Of a stretch of DNA of 64,000 bases, positions 44,529 to 53,094 are shown one piece after another; the first letter of the stretch is position 1; each line of letters begins with the position of its first letter. The notes under the pieces are model-generated. The model saw only the letters and a program-made list of their open reading frames with translations, did not search any database and was not told where the DNA came from. The DNA is from an uncultured Alphaproteobacteria bacterium (GTDB taxonomy: Bacteria > Pseudomonadota > Alphaproteobacteria > MPNO01 > UBA2964): positions 1,438,335-1,502,334 of the forward strand of contig OX638326.1 of NCBI GenBank assembly GCA_951812775.1, in the 5' to 3' direction. Position numbers and translations under genes: made by a program.

Positions 44529-45807
44529 TTAAAAGAACACGTAGGAGCGGACAACAACGTTCTTGCGGCACGGCGCATCGGCAGGCGCCGTCGGGTCTTC
44601 GCAGGCTGCGTGAAAGGACCAGCGCGACACCGAGCCGTCGGTAACACTGTCATAGCATTTCAGCATCGAGACCTCGGTCGGTTTCTGCTGCGGAAACCAG
44701 TACCACTCGTGATCGGGGCTGTAGGTAAACCGGGTGGTCTCGCCAACCCGGTCATCATATATCCGGTAATTATTGATATAGGGCTGATCGGCGAAGGACG
44801 GCCATGCGCAGAGCACGAACGGGTATTGTCCGACCGGTTCCATCGGCTTGGCCAGGTTGATGGACACAAAGCGTCGCGACATTTTTTCGTCGGCTTCTGC
44901 CTCCGTATAGTGCTGTTGTCGCCCGAAATTCCGGAGATTCTTCGTCAATAACTCGCGGCACCGCACACGGCCACTATTATCATTGAGATCGTTATGTACG
45001 CGGTTGGAATAGTTGGCATTCACGCCGGGGTTTTTAGCATCCCGATCTTCCGTGTGATCGCCGGCATAGTCCTTGTCAAAGACATCGTGGTTATAGACCA
45101 GCGCATCAGTCGCCTCCGGGAAGAAATCCAGCAGAAGCTTTTTCAATCTCAGGATAAAAGACACGCTCGACCTCCGCTGAATCATAAACGTTTTTAAGTT
45201 TTGACTCACAATGCGCCACGGCCAAACCAAGCTTGTCCATACATTCTGGGCTGCTCGGCGAAATTCCGGGATGATAGTCTTCAATACGGCGCGCGTCGCG
45301 CATCACGCTTGGGAAAAACAAATTGTAGCGCTTGTTGTTTTCCTCAGCGCGGCGCAAAATTTTTGCCTTGTCCGCCTGTGCCGGGTCACGCCATAGCCTG
45401 TTAGACCGCACGACGGAATAGGTCGGGCGTTCATACACGGTGTAGGCCAGGGGAATGGCGATGCCACCTTCGGGGGCTTCAATATTGTTATCGCGGATAA
45501 AATTGAGGCATTCTTCGTAGCCGCGAAACCCGATCCCCCATTCGGTTTCGATCGGACCGGGCGGGACATTTTCCAGCATCTCAATAACCCGTTCGCCTTC
45601 ACCCTCTGTGGCAAGGGCAAGCGCGTCTTCAATAGCCTTGGATGTCCCGGCATCCCCATCGCGATCAAAGGAATAGTAGGACAGCCCGCCATTTGAGGCG
45701 ACTGGCGGTGGTTGCCCTTCAGTAAGTTGAAGCGGTGGCACATAGGTCGTTGACGGCACGGTGCTATTCTCCGACTGCGGACTGGCTGTCCCTTCAATAT
45801 GATCCAT
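44529..45807 (-). pseudogene. CmcJ/NvfI-family oxidoreductase, frameshifted in a 5-A run
   Basis: The N-terminal frame (45807 to VFYPEIEKASAGF) and the C-terminal frame (from KLLLDFFPEATDALV) join if one base of the T run 45139-45143 (A-run on the coding strand) is removed, giving about 425 residues. C-terminal family features are RFVSINLAKPMEP, TTRFTYSPDHEWYWFPQQ and LKCYDSVTDG with HAACEDPTAPADAP. The family includes 2-oxoglutarate-dependent oxygenases. The N-terminal ~200 residues are an extra region of unknown kind. A sequencing slip is a simple alternative. Confidence 0.75.
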
Positions 45808-45948: not shown

Positions 45949-47031
45949 ATGACCTTGGTTCTCAGCAATGAAGAAATCGACCAAATCCTAACCATGGAAA
46001 TGGCCCTGGAATGTGTCGAAGCCTGCCAGCACGCGGTTGAGGCGGAGGAGGCCATCAATAGCCCGCGTGTTGATACGTTGGCACCGACCAAATTTGGCGA
46101 CACCGAGGGCGTCTATAGTCTGAAATCGATGAGTGGACTCTGGTCTGCCGCGGGTATGGCCGCGCTCCGCATTAACAGTGATGTGCTGATCTGGCCTGAA
46201 GTGGCGGGAAATATAAGACGGGATCGCCTGGCCTCGGCTGATGGTCGGTGGAATGGGTTGATGCTCCTGTTCAGCATGGAAACCGGGGCGCCCGTCATGA
46301 TCTGTCCGGATGGCTATATCTCGCGGATGCGGGTTGGCGCGGCAAACGGGTTAGGGGCACGCTATCTGGCCCGCGAAGACTCGGAGGAAATGGCGCTGCT
46401 GGGAACCGGGTGGCAGGCAGGCGGCCAGCTGATGTCCCATTGCGCGGTGCGTGCTATCAAGGAAGTCCGTGTCTTCAGTCCCAACCCCGACAATCGGGAA
46501 CGGTTTTGCCACGAGATGGCGAACCGGGTAAACGCCAAACTCATTCCCGTCGAGTCTGCGGAAGAAGCCGTTACCAATGCCGATATAGTCGCGACGGGTA
46601 CCAACTCCATGGACCCCGTTCATCGTACTGACTGGTTAAAACCTGGGGTGCATTTTAGTGCCGTGAAGGTGCAGGAGGTTGATGAAACCTTCCTCGACTC
46701 TGTAGACCGGCCGTTTATGTTCTCCAAAAATCCGGCGACAACCCGGCCCCAGCTTTACAAACTGCCGACCGTCGAAACGCCCGAGGGTACTGACGGCTGG
46801 TGGTTCAAGAGGGATGAACCGCTTTGGGACCGCATAGAAGAGCTACCACAGCTCCTAAGCGGCGCGACGCAGGGCCGACAAAATGCCGAACAGACGACCG
46901 CTTTCGTCAATAATGTCGGTCAGGGACTTCAATTTACCGCCGTCGCCCATAAGGTCTATCAGGAGGCGGTGACAAGAGGCATCGGGCATGAGTTACCCAC
47001 CGAATGGTTTACGCAGGACGTGCATCCCTAA
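45949..47031 (+). CDS. Ornithine cyclodeaminase/mu-crystallin family protein
   Basis: 360 aa. Motifs are LVLSNEEIDQILTMEMALECVEACQHAVEA at the N-terminus, GVYSLKSMSGLW, ISRMRVGAANGLGARYLAREDS and the nucleotide-binding LLGTGWQAGGQLMSHCAV, then VRVFSPNPDNRERFC. The family includes ornithine cyclodeaminase, alanine or arginine dehydrogenase and ketimine reductases, all NAD(P)(H)-linked. Divergent from the CmcJ gene and convergent with marR. Substrate not deducible. Confidence 0.87.
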   Translation: MTLVLSNEEIDQILTMEMALECVEACQHAVEAEEAINSPRVDTLAPTKFGDTEGVYSLKSMSGLWSAAGMAALRINSDVLIWPEVAGNIRRDRLASADGRWNGLMLLFSMETGAPVMICPDGYISRMRVGAANGLGARYLAREDSEEMALLGTGWQAGGQLMSHCAVRAIKEVRVFSPNPDNRERFCHEMANRVNAKLIPVESAEEAVTNADIVATGTNSMDPVHRTDWLKPGVHFSAVKVQEVDETFLDSVDRPFMFSKNPATTRPQLYKLPTVETPEGTDGWWFKRDEPLWDRIEELPQLLSGATQGRQNAEQTTAFVNNVGQGLQFTAVAHKVYQEAVTRGIGHELPTEWFTQDVHP

Positions 47032-47042
47032 GGCCTAAAAAA

Positions 47043-47513
47043 TTACGGAACCGCCGTCGCCCGCATCACATTGTCGCGCAGATTGGAGATATTCTTCACC
47101 AATGCTTCGAGCTTTTCGAGATCATAACCGGTGGTCTCGATGATGCATTTGGTGATGTTGGCGGCATGCTTTTGCAACGCTCGCCCACTGGGCGTTAAAG
47201 AAACAAAAACCTGACGCTCATCAATTTCACCGCGTTTTCTTTTGATATGTCCAAGGCTTTCCAGCCGCTTCAAGAGCGGCGTTACCGTGTTGGATTCCAG
47301 ACGCAGCCGGTCGCACAATTCGCCAATATTCAATCCGTCCTCCTCCCACAATATGGTCAGGGCAATATATTGCGGATAGGTGAGATTTAATTCTTTGAGC
47401 ATCGGGCTATAGGCTCGGTTAAAAGCATGTCCGGCTGAATAGATATTAAAACAGATGAACTCTTCGACGCTTTTCGGCAGATCGTCAATCGCAACAGGTT
47501 TAGGCATCGACAC
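47043..47513 (-). CDS. MarR-family transcriptional regulator
   Basis: 156 aa with a winged helix-turn-helix core: LTYPQYIALTILWEEDGLNIGELCDRLRLESNTVTPLLKRLESLGHIKRKRGEIDERQVFVSLT. The recognition helix is about residues 75-90. Cys is present (in EFICFN near the N-terminus), so redox sensing as in OhrR is possible but unproven. It is divergent from the HTHP gene over a 134-bp gap holding two palindromes and is probably its repressor. Confidence 0.9.
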   Translation of the reverse strand: MSMPKPVAIDDLPKSVEEFICFNIYSAGHAFNRAYSPMLKELNLTYPQYIALTILWEEDGLNIGELCDRLRLESNTVTPLLKRLESLGHIKRKRGEIDERQVFVSLTPSGRALQKHAANITKCIIETTGYDLEKLEALVKNISNLRDNVMRATAVP

Positions 47514-47549
47514 GGTCCCGATAGGTTAAAGGTCTGGCTTTCGAAATTT

Positions 47550-47565
47550 ATATCGCAAACGATAT
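47550..47565. promoter_or_regulatory. Candidate MarR operator (16-bp palindrome)
   Basis: ATATCG-CAAA-CGATAT, a perfect 6-bp inverted repeat, 3 nt before the TTGACA box at 47569-47574. The position between two divergent genes fits MarR autoregulation. Confidence 0.5.
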
Positions 47566-47568
47566 GTA

Positions 47569-47599
47569 TTGACATCCAGACAAAAACATTTAATTATAC
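47569..47599 (+). promoter_or_regulatory. Candidate sigma-70 promoter for the HTHP gene
   Basis: A perfect TTGACA lies at 47569-47574, with the AT-rich ttatac at 47594-47599 as the best -10. The 19-nt spacer is longer than ideal, and an 18-nt alternative (attata) is weaker. The -10 region lies inside the long palindrome. Confidence 0.45.
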
Positions 47600-47633
47600 C
47601 GTACACGAATTAATCGTGTACGGTATAATTAAA
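47589..47633. promoter_or_regulatory. 45-bp perfect palindrome (20-bp arms, 5-nt spacer)
   Basis: Arms 47589-47608 and 47614-47633 are exact reverse complements around ATTAA. It ends 1 base before the GGAGGA ribosome-binding site of the HTHP gene. It overlaps the likely -10 and transcription start and would form a strong hairpin in the 5' leader. It may be an operator, an mRNA switch or both. Confidence 0.85.
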
Positions 47634-47647
47634 TGGAGGAACAGCCG

Positions 47648-47872
47648 ATGTCCTGTTTACCGAGTCTAATCACCAACACAGCTGAGGAAGGCTATAAGGT
47701 CGCGATAAAGCTGTCGCGCATGGCCGTGAAGATGACGCAACCGGATGATGCCAGCAGAGAGAAAATGCGTCCCGATTACGCAAACAATGCCGACAGCCTT
47801 ATCCAGGTCTCTCTGGTCGTCGCGACAAATTTTAACACCGTGGCCAAAGCCAATAATTACTGGCGGGATTAA
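47648..47872 (+). CDS. Hexameric tyrosine-coordinated heme protein (HTHP)
   Basis: 74 aa from ATG 47648, chosen because GGAGGA sits 7 nt upstream; the ATG at 47633 overlaps the palindrome. The match to the family is nearly full length: TAEEGYKVAIKLSRMAVKMTQPDD, REKMRPDYANNADSL, VVATNFNTVAKANNYWRD. HTHP from Silicibacter pomeroyi is a heme hexamer with Tyr as heme ligand and peroxidase and catalase activity. Here it heads a cluster with DUF1971 and a truncated haemoglobin behind a MarR gene. Confidence 0.9.
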   Translation: MSCLPSLITNTAEEGYKVAIKLSRMAVKMTQPDDASREKMRPDYANNADSLIQVSLVVATNFNTVAKANNYWRD

Positions 47873-47958
47873 CCACGCGTGCTCCTTTAACGAAGGCCGA
47901 ACATGTTTTCTCTTTCGAACAAATCGGGAATTAATTTGATGCCCAGGAGTACAAAGAA

Positions 47959-48246
47959 ATGACGGCGCAACTTCCGGAACATGCTGAGAAATATGCCGAG
48001 TCTCCGGAATTCACGACAAAAACTGTTCCTGACTCCCTCACCACATCACATGACACGAAGCCAGGTGTCTGGGGGAAACTTATCGTCATCGAGGGCGCGC
48101 TTGATTTCATAATTGAAGGGCCGCCGGAGCAAACAATCCGCTTGGAGGCAAACGCGCATACGGTGATCGAGCCCCAACAGGTTCATCGGGTCCGGCTAGA
48201 CCGCTATACCCGATTTCTGATCGAATTCTATCGCGAACCAAACTGA
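47959..48246 (+). CDS. DUF1971 (YeaR/TehB-like) cupin-fold protein
   Basis: 95 aa. The family signature is PDSLTTSHDTKPGVWGKLIVIEGALDFII, then ANAHTVIEPQQVHRVRLD and FLIEFYRE. The E. coli member YeaR is induced by nitrate and nitric oxide. The ribosome-binding site AGGAG is 8-9 nt upstream. It is placed between HTHP and a truncated haemoglobin, which supports a role in NO or peroxide stress. Confidence 0.85.
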   Translation: MTAQLPEHAEKYAESPEFTTKTVPDSLTTSHDTKPGVWGKLIVIEGALDFIIEGPPEQTIRLEANAHTVIEPQQVHRVRLDRYTRFLIEFYREPN

Positions 48247-48281
48247 GAAACATCGTGACTTCAACCTTCAGAGAAGCTCAC

Positions 48282-48695
48282 ATGGCTGAATTACGGACCC
48301 GCGCCAATGCCGTGGGTGTGGACGAGAATTACATCACTCTCTTACTTGATAACTTTTACAGCCGTGTTCGCAGGCACGAGGTACTCGGCCCGATTTTCCA
48401 GGACACCATTGGTAATGACTGGAGCGAGCATCTTGTCATTATCAAGTCGTTCTGGGTCAGTTTTATCTTTGGAGATGGCAGCTACAAAAGAGATATGGGG
48501 CCGATCCACAAAAACCTGACTGATGTGAAACCCGAGCATTTTGCGATCTGGCTCGAACTATTTCGGTCAACGCTGGAAGATACCGCTCCCCAGCCGGAAG
48601 CCATCGAGTTCTTTATGGCGCGGGCGGGACGCGTCGCTCAAGGATTGCAAACTATCATGTATGGGCGAAAGAAGCCGCCGCAAAGCGCCCCATAA
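48282..48695 (+). CDS. Group III truncated haemoglobin
   Basis: 137 aa from ATG 48282 (AGAGAAG 6 nt upstream); a GTG at 48255 would add 9 residues. ITLLLDNFYSRVRRHEVLGPIFQDTI matches the group III pattern with the B/C region; EHLVIIKSFWVSFIFG and IHKNLTDVKPEHFAIWLELFR include the likely proximal His. Such globins occur in NO detoxification and microaerobic settings. It is 35 nt after DUF1971 and forms one operon with it. Confidence 0.87.
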   Translation: MAELRTRANAVGVDENYITLLLDNFYSRVRRHEVLGPIFQDTIGNDWSEHLVIIKSFWVSFIFGDGSYKRDMGPIHKNLTDVKPEHFAIWLELFRSTLEDTAPQPEAIEFFMARAGRVAQGLQTIMYGRKKPPQSAP

Positions 48696-48715: not shown

Positions 48716-49453
48716 TTACGCCACATCAAAGCCGCGTGACGTCAAGTCGGCCTCATCAAGGATGCGTTTTACCTGTCCGGAGGCTTTGGCCTCTTCGACG
48801 AATTCATTCATGAAATCCAGCAGGTCTTGCCTGCCCTTGGCAATAGCGAAGCTGCCAATATTATATCCAAAGCCTTCGGTAAGGATACGAGACCCCGGCA
48901 ATAGCTCGGCATAATCGATGAGCTGTTCCCGCGGCAGGGCAAACGCATCAACATCGCCTGCCTGCACCATCGCAAAGGCTTCATCGGGAATTTCCGTGGC
49001 AACGATCTCGGCATGTTTAATGGTGGCCTTAAGGGCCATCCACGAGGCGTGACCACTCGGTACCGAGATCCGACAGCCCGGTCGATCAACCTCGTCTGTT
49101 TCCTGAATAGCGGAGCCAACCGGCACCAGATAGGCAAAGTCAAACTGGATAACCGGTGGGGTGAAATCAGCGAGCTGCCAACGCAACTCCTCGACCCCCA
49201 GAATGCTCAGATCGCAGCCACCGTCGTTGAGGGTTTTGATCGCCGCGGGCGGCGATGGCTGCTCGATGAGTTCCATCCTGATACCGAGACTCTCAGCAAG
49301 GGTGCCAATTAATGCATTGCCAACAACACCCGCCCCGAGCGGCGTTACGACACCATCCGCTGCCGTCGCATATTGCGGCAGAAACAGAGCGAGCCGTATG
49401 ACGCCGGACTCGATGATATCAGTGATACGGGGATCATCCGCAGCGTTGCTCAT
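48716..49453 (-). CDS. Extracellular-solute-binding-like protein (SBP_bac_3) without visible signal peptide
   Basis: 245 aa. Type 3 periplasmic binding-protein fold: SGVIRLALFLPQYATAADG at the N-terminus, LGIRMELIEQPSPPAAIKTLNDGGCDLSILG, then VPSGHASWMALKATIKHAEIVATE and GDVDAFALPREQLIDYAELL. It begins MSNAADDPRITDI with no hydrophobic leader, so either the true start is missing or the protein is cytoplasmic. Its neighbour is a hydroxyisobutyrate-type dehydrogenase. No permease genes adjoin. Confidence 0.75.
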   Translation of the reverse strand: MSNAADDPRITDIIESGVIRLALFLPQYATAADGVVTPLGAGVVGNALIGTLAESLGIRMELIEQPSPPAAIKTLNDGGCDLSILGVEELRWQLADFTPPVIQFDFAYLVPVGSAIQETDEVDRPGCRISVPSGHASWMALKATIKHAEIVATEIPDEAFAMVQAGDVDAFALPREQLIDYAELLPGSRILTEGFGYNIGSFAIAKGRQDLLDFMNEFVEEAKASGQVKRILDEADLTSRGFDVA

Positions 49454-51705: not shown

Positions 51706-53094
51706 ATGGGCAGATTTCCGATCACACGGCGACAATTTCTTTCCAGCCTCGCATCACTGCCTGTCGCGGGATTTTTCACCAACGCCACGTGCGCGGCGCC
51801 GTTTGAAATTCGGGCGACGTCAGGCACGGCGAAACTCGGGCCGGCAGACGCGCCAGAGACTCCAATCTGGGGATATAACGGGGGCGTGCCCGGGCCATTG
51901 CTTCGTGTCAAACAGGGACAGAAACTGTCGCACCGTTTTATCAACGAATTGCCTCAACCCTCGACAATTCATTGGCATGGCATTCGCATCAAGAATTCAA
52001 TGGATGGTGTGCCAGACCTCACCCAAAAGGCCGTCCCACCACAGAAGAATTTCCTTTACGAATTTGAGGTGCCCGATGCCGGCACCTATTGGTACCACCC
52101 GCATAACCGAAGCTGGGAACAGCTCGCCCGGGGTTTATACGGTCCTCTGATTGTCGATGAAGCCAACTTGCCAGAGGTCGATGATGATATCGTCATGATG
52201 CTTGATGATTGGCGTCTTCAACCGGATGGAAAGATTGCAGGCGATTTTGGATCCATCGGAGACTGGTCACACGGTGGAAGACTCGGCAACTGGATCACCG
52301 TCAATGGAAAAAGCGATTTTGACCGAAAAGCGCGCCTGAATGAACGGCTCAGGCTGCGCTTGATCAATACCGCCAACGCCAGAATTTTCTCGTTGGGTTT
52401 TTCCGGGCTGGCCGGCTGGATTGTTGCGCTCGATGGACAGCCTTTGAGAAAACCCATGCCCACAACACACATCGTCTTAGGGCCTGCTCAACGGGTTGAC
52501 CTGATTGTCGATATTGCGGAACCCGTGGAGTCAAAAGCGCACCTCATCTTTTATGAAAATAACCAGGAATATGTTCTTGGCTCTTTCCATGTTAAGGGGA
52601 GCGCCCGCAGTAACAGGCTGCCAAGGTCGGCACCCCTGCCGCAAAACCCTTTACCTCCGCTTGGTGACCTCGATTCCGCACGCCGCGTAAGCCTCAATAT
52701 GGAAGGCGGGGCAATGGGAAGAATGTCCGGGGCCATGATAAATGGCAAAATGACAATGATGCCTTCATTAGTGAAACAGGGGAAAGTCTGGGCCTTTAAC
52801 GGCATGGCTGATTTGCCCGAAGCACCTTTGGTCACCGCCAAAGCAGGAGAAACCGTCCGGATCAAGATCAAAAACAATACCGTCTGGCCGCACGCCATGC
52901 ATTTACATGGACATCATTTCAGACAGGTCATCGATGGCGCGCCTCCCGGTCCGCTGCGAGACACCTTGCTCATCGAAAGCCGTCGTGGCACAGAAATCGC
53001 CTTTGTCGCAGACAACCCAGGAGACTGGCTCCTGCACTGTCACATGGTTGAACATGCAGCGGCAGGGATGACCACCTGGCTCAAGGTCGTTTAG
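51706..53094 (+). CDS. Multicopper oxidase with Tat signal
   Basis: 462 aa. The twin-arginine signal is TRRQFLSSLASLPVAGFF. Copper motifs are HWHGIRIKN, YWYHPHNR, MHLHGHHFRQ, and LLHCHMVEHAAAGM. The layout is like CueO/CopA-type or bilirubin-oxidase-like enzymes. It contains a Met-rich stretch (MEGGAMGRMSGAM followed by MTMMPSL), which in CueO-like proteins binds Cu(I). It is expected in the periplasm, oxidising Cu(I) or phenolics with O2. It stands alone. Confidence 0.92.
   Translation: MGRFPITRRQFLSSLASLPVAGFFTNATCAAPFEIRATSGTAKLGPADAPETPIWGYNGGVPGPLLRVKQGQKLSHRFINELPQPSTIHWHGIRIKNSMDGVPDLTQKAVPPQKNFLYEFEVPDAGTYWYHPHNRSWEQLARGLYGPLIVDEANLPEVDDDIVMMLDDWRLQPDGKIAGDFGSIGDWSHGGRLGNWITVNGKSDFDRKARLNERLRLRLINTANARIFSLGFSGLAGWIVALDGQPLRKPMPTTHIVLGPAQRVDLIVDIAEPVESKAHLIFYENNQEYVLGSFHVKGSARSNRLPRSAPLPQNPLPPLGDLDSARRVSLNMEGGAMGRMSGAMINGKMTMMPSLVKQGKVWAFNGMADLPEAPLVTAKAGETVRIKIKNNTVWPHAMHLHGHHFRQVIDGAPPGPLRDTLLIESRRGTEIAFVADNPGDWLLHCHMVEHAAAGMTTWLKVV

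Follow-up and report, generated by a model that had tools for sequence, protein, structure and literature searches.

The window, the 64-kb stretch of DNA analysed here, carries a compact group of four genes in which a MarR-family regulator on the minus strand faces three genes on the plus strand, encoding the small tyrosine-ligated heme protein HTHP, a DUF1971 protein and a truncated haemoglobin of group III (trHb3). The coordinates and orientations of these four genes (Table 1) are as the initial annotation gave them, and its family assignments were borne out; the three operator copies were not part of that annotation. The MarR, HTHP and DUF1971 products scored above their Pfam cut-offs, and the haemoglobin was identified by its match to the group III truncated haemoglobin of C. 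jejuni (Ctb, 2ig3; E 1.2e-15); against Pfam Bac_globin it reached 17.8 bits, below the cut-off of 21. The trHb3 heme pocket is kept in the 2ig3 alignment (B10 Tyr, E7 His, E15 Trp, F8 His and G8 Trp). HTHP matched structure 2oyy (E 4.6e-21), again with the ligand tyrosine kept. A start for HTHP at 47633 was rejected in favour of the ATG at 47648, which has GGAGG eight bases ahead and yields the N-terminus MSCLPSL, as in relatives. Both HTHP and DUF1971 are present in single copy in the 4.15-Mb genome.

Table 1. Genes and regulatory features of the four-gene locus and its borders (positions in the window).
Feature	Position	Strand	Remarks
Ornithine-cyclodeaminase-family gene	45949-47031	(+)	3' end faces MarR gene
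OhrR-type MarR regulator, 156 aa	47043..47513	(-)	C21, C123 (predicted 2-Cys switch), Y25, Y35, Y46
Operator 1, TTATATCGCAAACGATATGT	47548..47567		20.9 bits; directly upstream of -35 box
Promoter-like TTGACA-17-AATTAT for HTHP	47569..47597	(+)	between and overlapping operators; consensus match only
Operator 2a, TTATACCGTACACGAATTAA	47594..47613		16.8 bits; left part of palindrome 47590-47632
Operator 2b, ATTAATCGTGTACGGTATAA	47609..47628		17.2 bits; right part of palindrome 47590-47632, overlaps -10/start region
HTHP	47648..47872	(+)	PF11534 E 5e-32, 110.4 bits (cut-off 25); conserved Tyr ligand = Y44 from ATG 47648
DUF1971 (YeaR / TehB-N-like), 95 aa	47959..48246	(+)	PF09313 68.3 bits (cut-off 23.1)
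Group III truncated haemoglobin (trHb3)	48255..48695	(+)	starts: GTG 48255 or ATG 48282
Solute-binding-protein gene	48716-49453	(-)	3' end faces haemoglobin gene

As the genes on either side run convergently toward the cassette, it is closed at both ends. HTHP and DUF1971 are separated by 86 bp, a gap that leaves room for separate transcription of DUF1971 and trHb3; no plus-strand promoter or terminator was predicted within it, and we infer that HTHP, DUF1971 and trHb3 are co-transcribed as one operon. Further along the window, positions 51706-53094 (+) encode a multicopper oxidase with a twin-arginine-like signal (TRRQFLSSL).

The annotation of the regulator as a MarR protein stood (Pfam 49.4 bits, cut-off 24.6) and could be sharpened to a predicted two-cysteine OhrR type with operators to match. 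Its closest MarR relatives of known structure are the X. campestris and B. subtilis OhrR proteins: X. campestris OhrR 2pfb was the best PDB match (E 4.8e-30), 2pex matched at E 1e-28, and B. subtilis OhrR 1z91 ranked third. The top family match was the NCBIfam OhrR model NF052638 (E 4e-38), but as the score of 130 bits falls under the curated cut-off of 200, we refer to the protein as OhrR-type and not as OhrR. 2-Cys OhrR proteins use their first cysteine as the hydroperoxide sensor and their second to link the subunits through a disulfide (PMC3469484). C21 of the regulator aligns with the reactive N-terminal cysteine of OhrR, with nearby Y35 and Y46 also kept. C123 sits three residues ahead of X. 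campestris C127 (the resolving cysteine being Cys126/127), at a place where many OhrR proteins of the same class that adjoin ohr likewise have a cysteine. C21, C123, Y25, Y35 and Y46 were invariant in 17 HTHP-linked homologues, for which mean column identity was 45%. The regulator is predicted to be a 2-Cys OhrR-type peroxide switch rather than a generic MarR protein. No gene for Ohr itself (TIGR03561) was found anywhere in the genome. MarR genes that adjoin trHb3-DUF1971 at three other loci (L123, L127 and L128) were set aside, being of another MarR type and weakly similar.

An operator matrix was built from the intergenic regions of 15 relatives, with the window left out. These regions share a 20-bp palindrome of consensus TTATATCGTGCACGATATAA, usually with one copy upstream of TTGACA and one at the -10 region. 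Within the 64-kb window the matrix found exactly three good sites, all upstream of HTHP, and the next best site scored 9.7 bits; a site with five or fewer mismatches occurred in 0.1% of shuffled intergenic regions. Operator 1 is the sole perfect ATATCGN4CGATAT in the 4.15-Mb genome, and operators 2a and 2b together make up a 43-bp palindrome with 19-bp perfect arms. On the minus strand this palindrome resembles a terminator, a reading that was rejected in view of the element's position, ahead of both genes, and of its make-up from two copies of the operator. The TTGACA of the promoter-like element is found at the same position in relatives; sites resembling TTGACA-17-AATTAT arose 2.2 times in the region in shuffled sequence. 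A wider regulon was considered and rejected: the 46 other operator cores with one mismatch in the genome all scored 10 bits or less, so the regulon looks local. The same matrix returned sites of 20-32 bits between ohrR and ohr at six alphaproteobacterial loci (L199, L200, L201, L207, L209 and L213), and it may serve to predict OhrR regulons across alphaproteobacteria. Footprinting has shown a dual-operator layout for EstR, an OhrR-like protein of A. tumefaciens (PMC5201249). OhrR-type operators upstream of HTHP amount to a direct prediction of the signal that would induce it.

The HTHP of Ruegeria pomeroyi is known to have peroxidase/catalase activity. Peroxide electrocatalysis by HTHP has been described (PMC4813847). 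The structure is solved, and the papers found, in which the protein was used as an electrode or building-block protein, stated no physiological role; no paper on OhrR control of HTHP was found in the searchable literature. We compared the neighbourhoods of HTHP at 80 loci, all in named genomes, of 561 loci found. Cultured relatives with OhrR-HTHP include Ruegeria faecimaris DSM 28009 and Maritalea myrionectae DSM 19524. An OhrR-type regulator was divergent to HTHP in 18 of the 80, directly adjacent in 16 and with a catalase-family gene between in two (L053 and L076); the genes downstream at the other OhrR-HTHP loci were different ones, or there were none. A trHb3 gene lay within 7 kb of HTHP in 15 of the 80 loci and within 0.6 kb in seven of these, usually accompanied by an Rrf2 regulator for which NsrR ranked first or second among NCBIfam matches (below its cut-off). 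One Rhodobacterales arrangement, trHb3 / NsrR - ccoNOP - DUF2189 - HTHP - DUF6522, recurred with variations (L043, L047, L050, L066, L075, L078 and L086) and links HTHP and trHb3 to the cbb3 oxidase and an NO sensor. Another type, which includes R. pomeroyi, has a different MarR gene, a hypothetical protein, HTHP and an AhpC/TSA redoxin. As OhrR, trHb3/NsrR and redoxin recur as its neighbours, HTHP often accompanies peroxide and NO genes.

The switch might instead be tuned to sulfane sulfur or hypochlorite in place of peroxides, as reported for some OhrR proteins. The same cysteines serve a number of OhrR/MarR proteins as sensors of sulfane sulfur (PMC11211675). We consider this very improbable for the window, as the genes that accompany the regulator from locus to locus encode heme peroxidases, a redoxin and haemoglobins, and no sulfur-oxidation genes were noticed next to it.

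Some further observations on HTHP were made. At L053 (5423-7219) and L076 (5383-7213) the OhrR-type regulator, a secreted-looking catalase-family protein and HTHP lie in a row; the alphaproteobacterial operator matrix found no site at either locus, and this branch of OhrR therefore probably recognises a different sequence. HTHP homologues occur on enterobacterial plasmids of E. coli (CP057135.1) and E. albertii (NZ_CP126915.1), one of them annotated as a peroxidase. In a tree of HTHP proteins the window sequence grouped with that of a sister species, G294 (100/90), with too few columns to resolve much else and with one row (L007) probably cut in the wrong frame. The idea that HTHP replaces Ohr fits the window genome, which has no Ohr, but was not borne out across genomes: 4 of 18 OhrR-HTHP genomes had Ohr, against 7 of 32 other HTHP genomes. 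As these proportions show no difference, there is no statistical support for such replacement as a general rule.

DUF1971 was found in 30 of 385 genomes of the class. At 14 of 28 loci examined it had trHb3 alongside, eight of these with an NsrR-like regulator, and the trHb3-DUF1971 pair is also present on an annotated Sphingobium plasmid. Separately from the OhrR-HTHP pairing, DUF1971 and trHb3 thus keep recurring together, in many cases beside an NsrR-like regulator. Such company favours a mainly nitric oxide or nitrite locus, in which trHb3 and DUF1971 would be the core, HTHP would handle NO-derived species and the regulator would answer reactive nitrogen. HTHP too adjoins NsrR/trHb3, including in the trHb3-NsrR-cbb3 clusters, and is followed by a cytochrome P460 gene in the sister species. 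E. coli yeaR, an NsrR target, ranks near the top of the genes induced under nitrate/NO conditions (PMC5320621). However, the regulator of the window is OhrR-type and its operators are ohr-type, and no NsrR was found in the genome, whose only two Rrf2 proteins best match a SUF regulator and IscR. We therefore regard a locus devoted mainly to nitric oxide or nitrite as unlikely.

The sister species (G294) offers a view of how the arrangement may have arisen. Its trHb3 orthologue, 70% identical to that of the window, occupies the syntenic position but is divergent from NsrR. The shared flanks are the gene at 44.5-45.8 kb on one side and, on the other, the acetyltransferase at 50.4 kb and the block at 53-58 kb. 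In G294 an OhrR-HTHP unit is located approximately 350 kb from trHb3, the two being under different regulators. The simplest account would be that NsrR gave way to OhrR-HTHP(-DUF1971) upstream of trHb3: trHb3 would once have been divergent from NsrR, the OhrR-HTHP unit would have arrived or moved alongside, and NsrR would have been lost, leaving the haemoglobin under the OhrR switch. We take the change to have run from NsrR to OhrR because NsrR-trHb3 is the commoner pair. The comparison would provide a natural case of a haemoglobin gene exchanging its NO sensor for a thiol-peroxide one, which suggests that both stresses may be manageable by the same heme proteins. In the sister species a cytochrome P460 gene lies directly after HTHP with the same OhrR-type regulator (L010, 7173-7784). 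The window positions 44529-45807 (-) hold two overlapping open reading frames in different frames (251 and 233 aa) that correspond to one intact 435-aa frame in the sister species (L187, 11331-12638), reflecting either a broken gene or a sequencing error.

The initial annotation had proposed a single peroxide or reactive-nitrogen locus whose neighbours would be conserved in relatives. Conservation was found for each gene pair, with OhrR-HTHP, trHb3-DUF1971 and trHb3-HTHP all recurring, which supports the proposal of a single locus, but not for the set of four: the exact HTHP, DUF1971, trHb3 order under the regulator occurred in one genome only (80 of 561 HTHP loci compared). With the four-gene set seen once, an 86-bp gap in its middle, and HTHP and trHb3 approximately 350 kb apart under different regulators in the sister species, the locus could consist of two transcription units side by side by chance, an OhrR-HTHP peroxide pair and a DUF1971-trHb3 NO pair with its own control. 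The gap without a predicted plus-strand promoter or terminator and the genome without NsrR argue against chance placement, as does the recurrence of the design in a genome of another family (G354), whose OhrR is the nearest in the class to the HTHP-linked set. There (L226, 3538-8304) an OhrR-type regulator faces catalase-family peroxidase - trHb3 - DUF2189 - DUF1971 - COX1, with two like operators that score 26.0 and 25.7 bits. This locus has no HTHP, and a heme peroxidase of a different family occupies its place. As L226 repeats the combination in an unrelated family, it argues that an OhrR-type regulator with a heme peroxidase, trHb3 and DUF1971 is a design and not an accident of one genome. 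Placement by chance is in our judgement decidedly improbable.

The gene order, protein families, cysteines, operators and synteny, together with the absence of NsrR and Ohr, are direct readings of the DNA. On this basis we consider it probable that the locus is a self-contained OhrR-type peroxide regulon, in which an NO-response pair has been brought under an OhrR-type switch together with a heme peroxidase. Reduced OhrR dimers on the three operators over the HTHP promoter would keep both ohrR and the HTHP-DUF1971-trHb3 operon off. C21 would be oxidised by the inducer, likely an organic hydroperoxide or else one of the related thiol oxidants such as hypochlorite, peroxynitrite and sulfane sulfur; a disulfide between C21 and C123 of the partner subunit would then free the operators of repressor. 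HTHP would be made as a peroxidase/catalase-like peroxide scavenger, trHb3 would presumably act on NO/O2 or peroxide chemistry, and DUF1971 would be made as a YeaR-like member of the NO response. More tentatively, and with somewhat less than even confidence, we suggest that OhrR-type regulators mark out an Ohr-independent defence against peroxide, possibly peroxynitrite, in which HTHP stands in for the thiol peroxidase Ohr and acts alongside trHb3; in this genus, an NO-controlled haemoglobin would have been switched from NsrR to OhrR. The component parts are known; their proposed wiring, with HTHP, trHb3 and the YeaR-like protein all under an OhrR-type switch, was not found in the searchable literature.

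The proposed regulon resembles several known systems in part. With the OhrR-ohr pairs of X. campestris, C. violaceum and A. tumefaciens it has in common an OhrR-type repressor, in the window with C123 as the putative second cysteine of the switch, a divergent gene pair and palindromic operators at the promoter, and many alphaproteobacteria have the same operator between ohrR and ohr. OhrR-ohr controls the thiol peroxidase Ohr, whereas the window regulator would control the heme proteins HTHP and trHb3 plus DUF1971, with no adjacent ohr. In the EstR-estC system of A. tumefaciens, too, an OhrR-type regulator acts through two operators on a target that is not ohr (PMC5201249). The NsrR-trHb3(-DUF1971) units of alphaproteobacteria share trHb3 and DUF1971 with the window, and the trHb3 genes are orthologous and syntenic in the sister species; they differ in having NsrR where the window has OhrR and HTHP, and in placing DUF1971 after trHb3 instead of before it. 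At the HTHP locus of Ruegeria (Silicibacter) pomeroyi (SPO_RS20685-20710), HTHP is likewise downstream of a divergent MarR-family gene. That regulator, however, is by gene order of another type (c274) with members without the OhrR cysteines, and HTHP is preceded there by a hypothetical protein and followed by a redoxin, with no trHb3 or DUF1971 at the locus. The cluster of G354 shares the regulator type, operators, trHb3 and DUF1971 with the window, and differs in its catalase-family peroxidase in the place of HTHP and in the further genes that follow.
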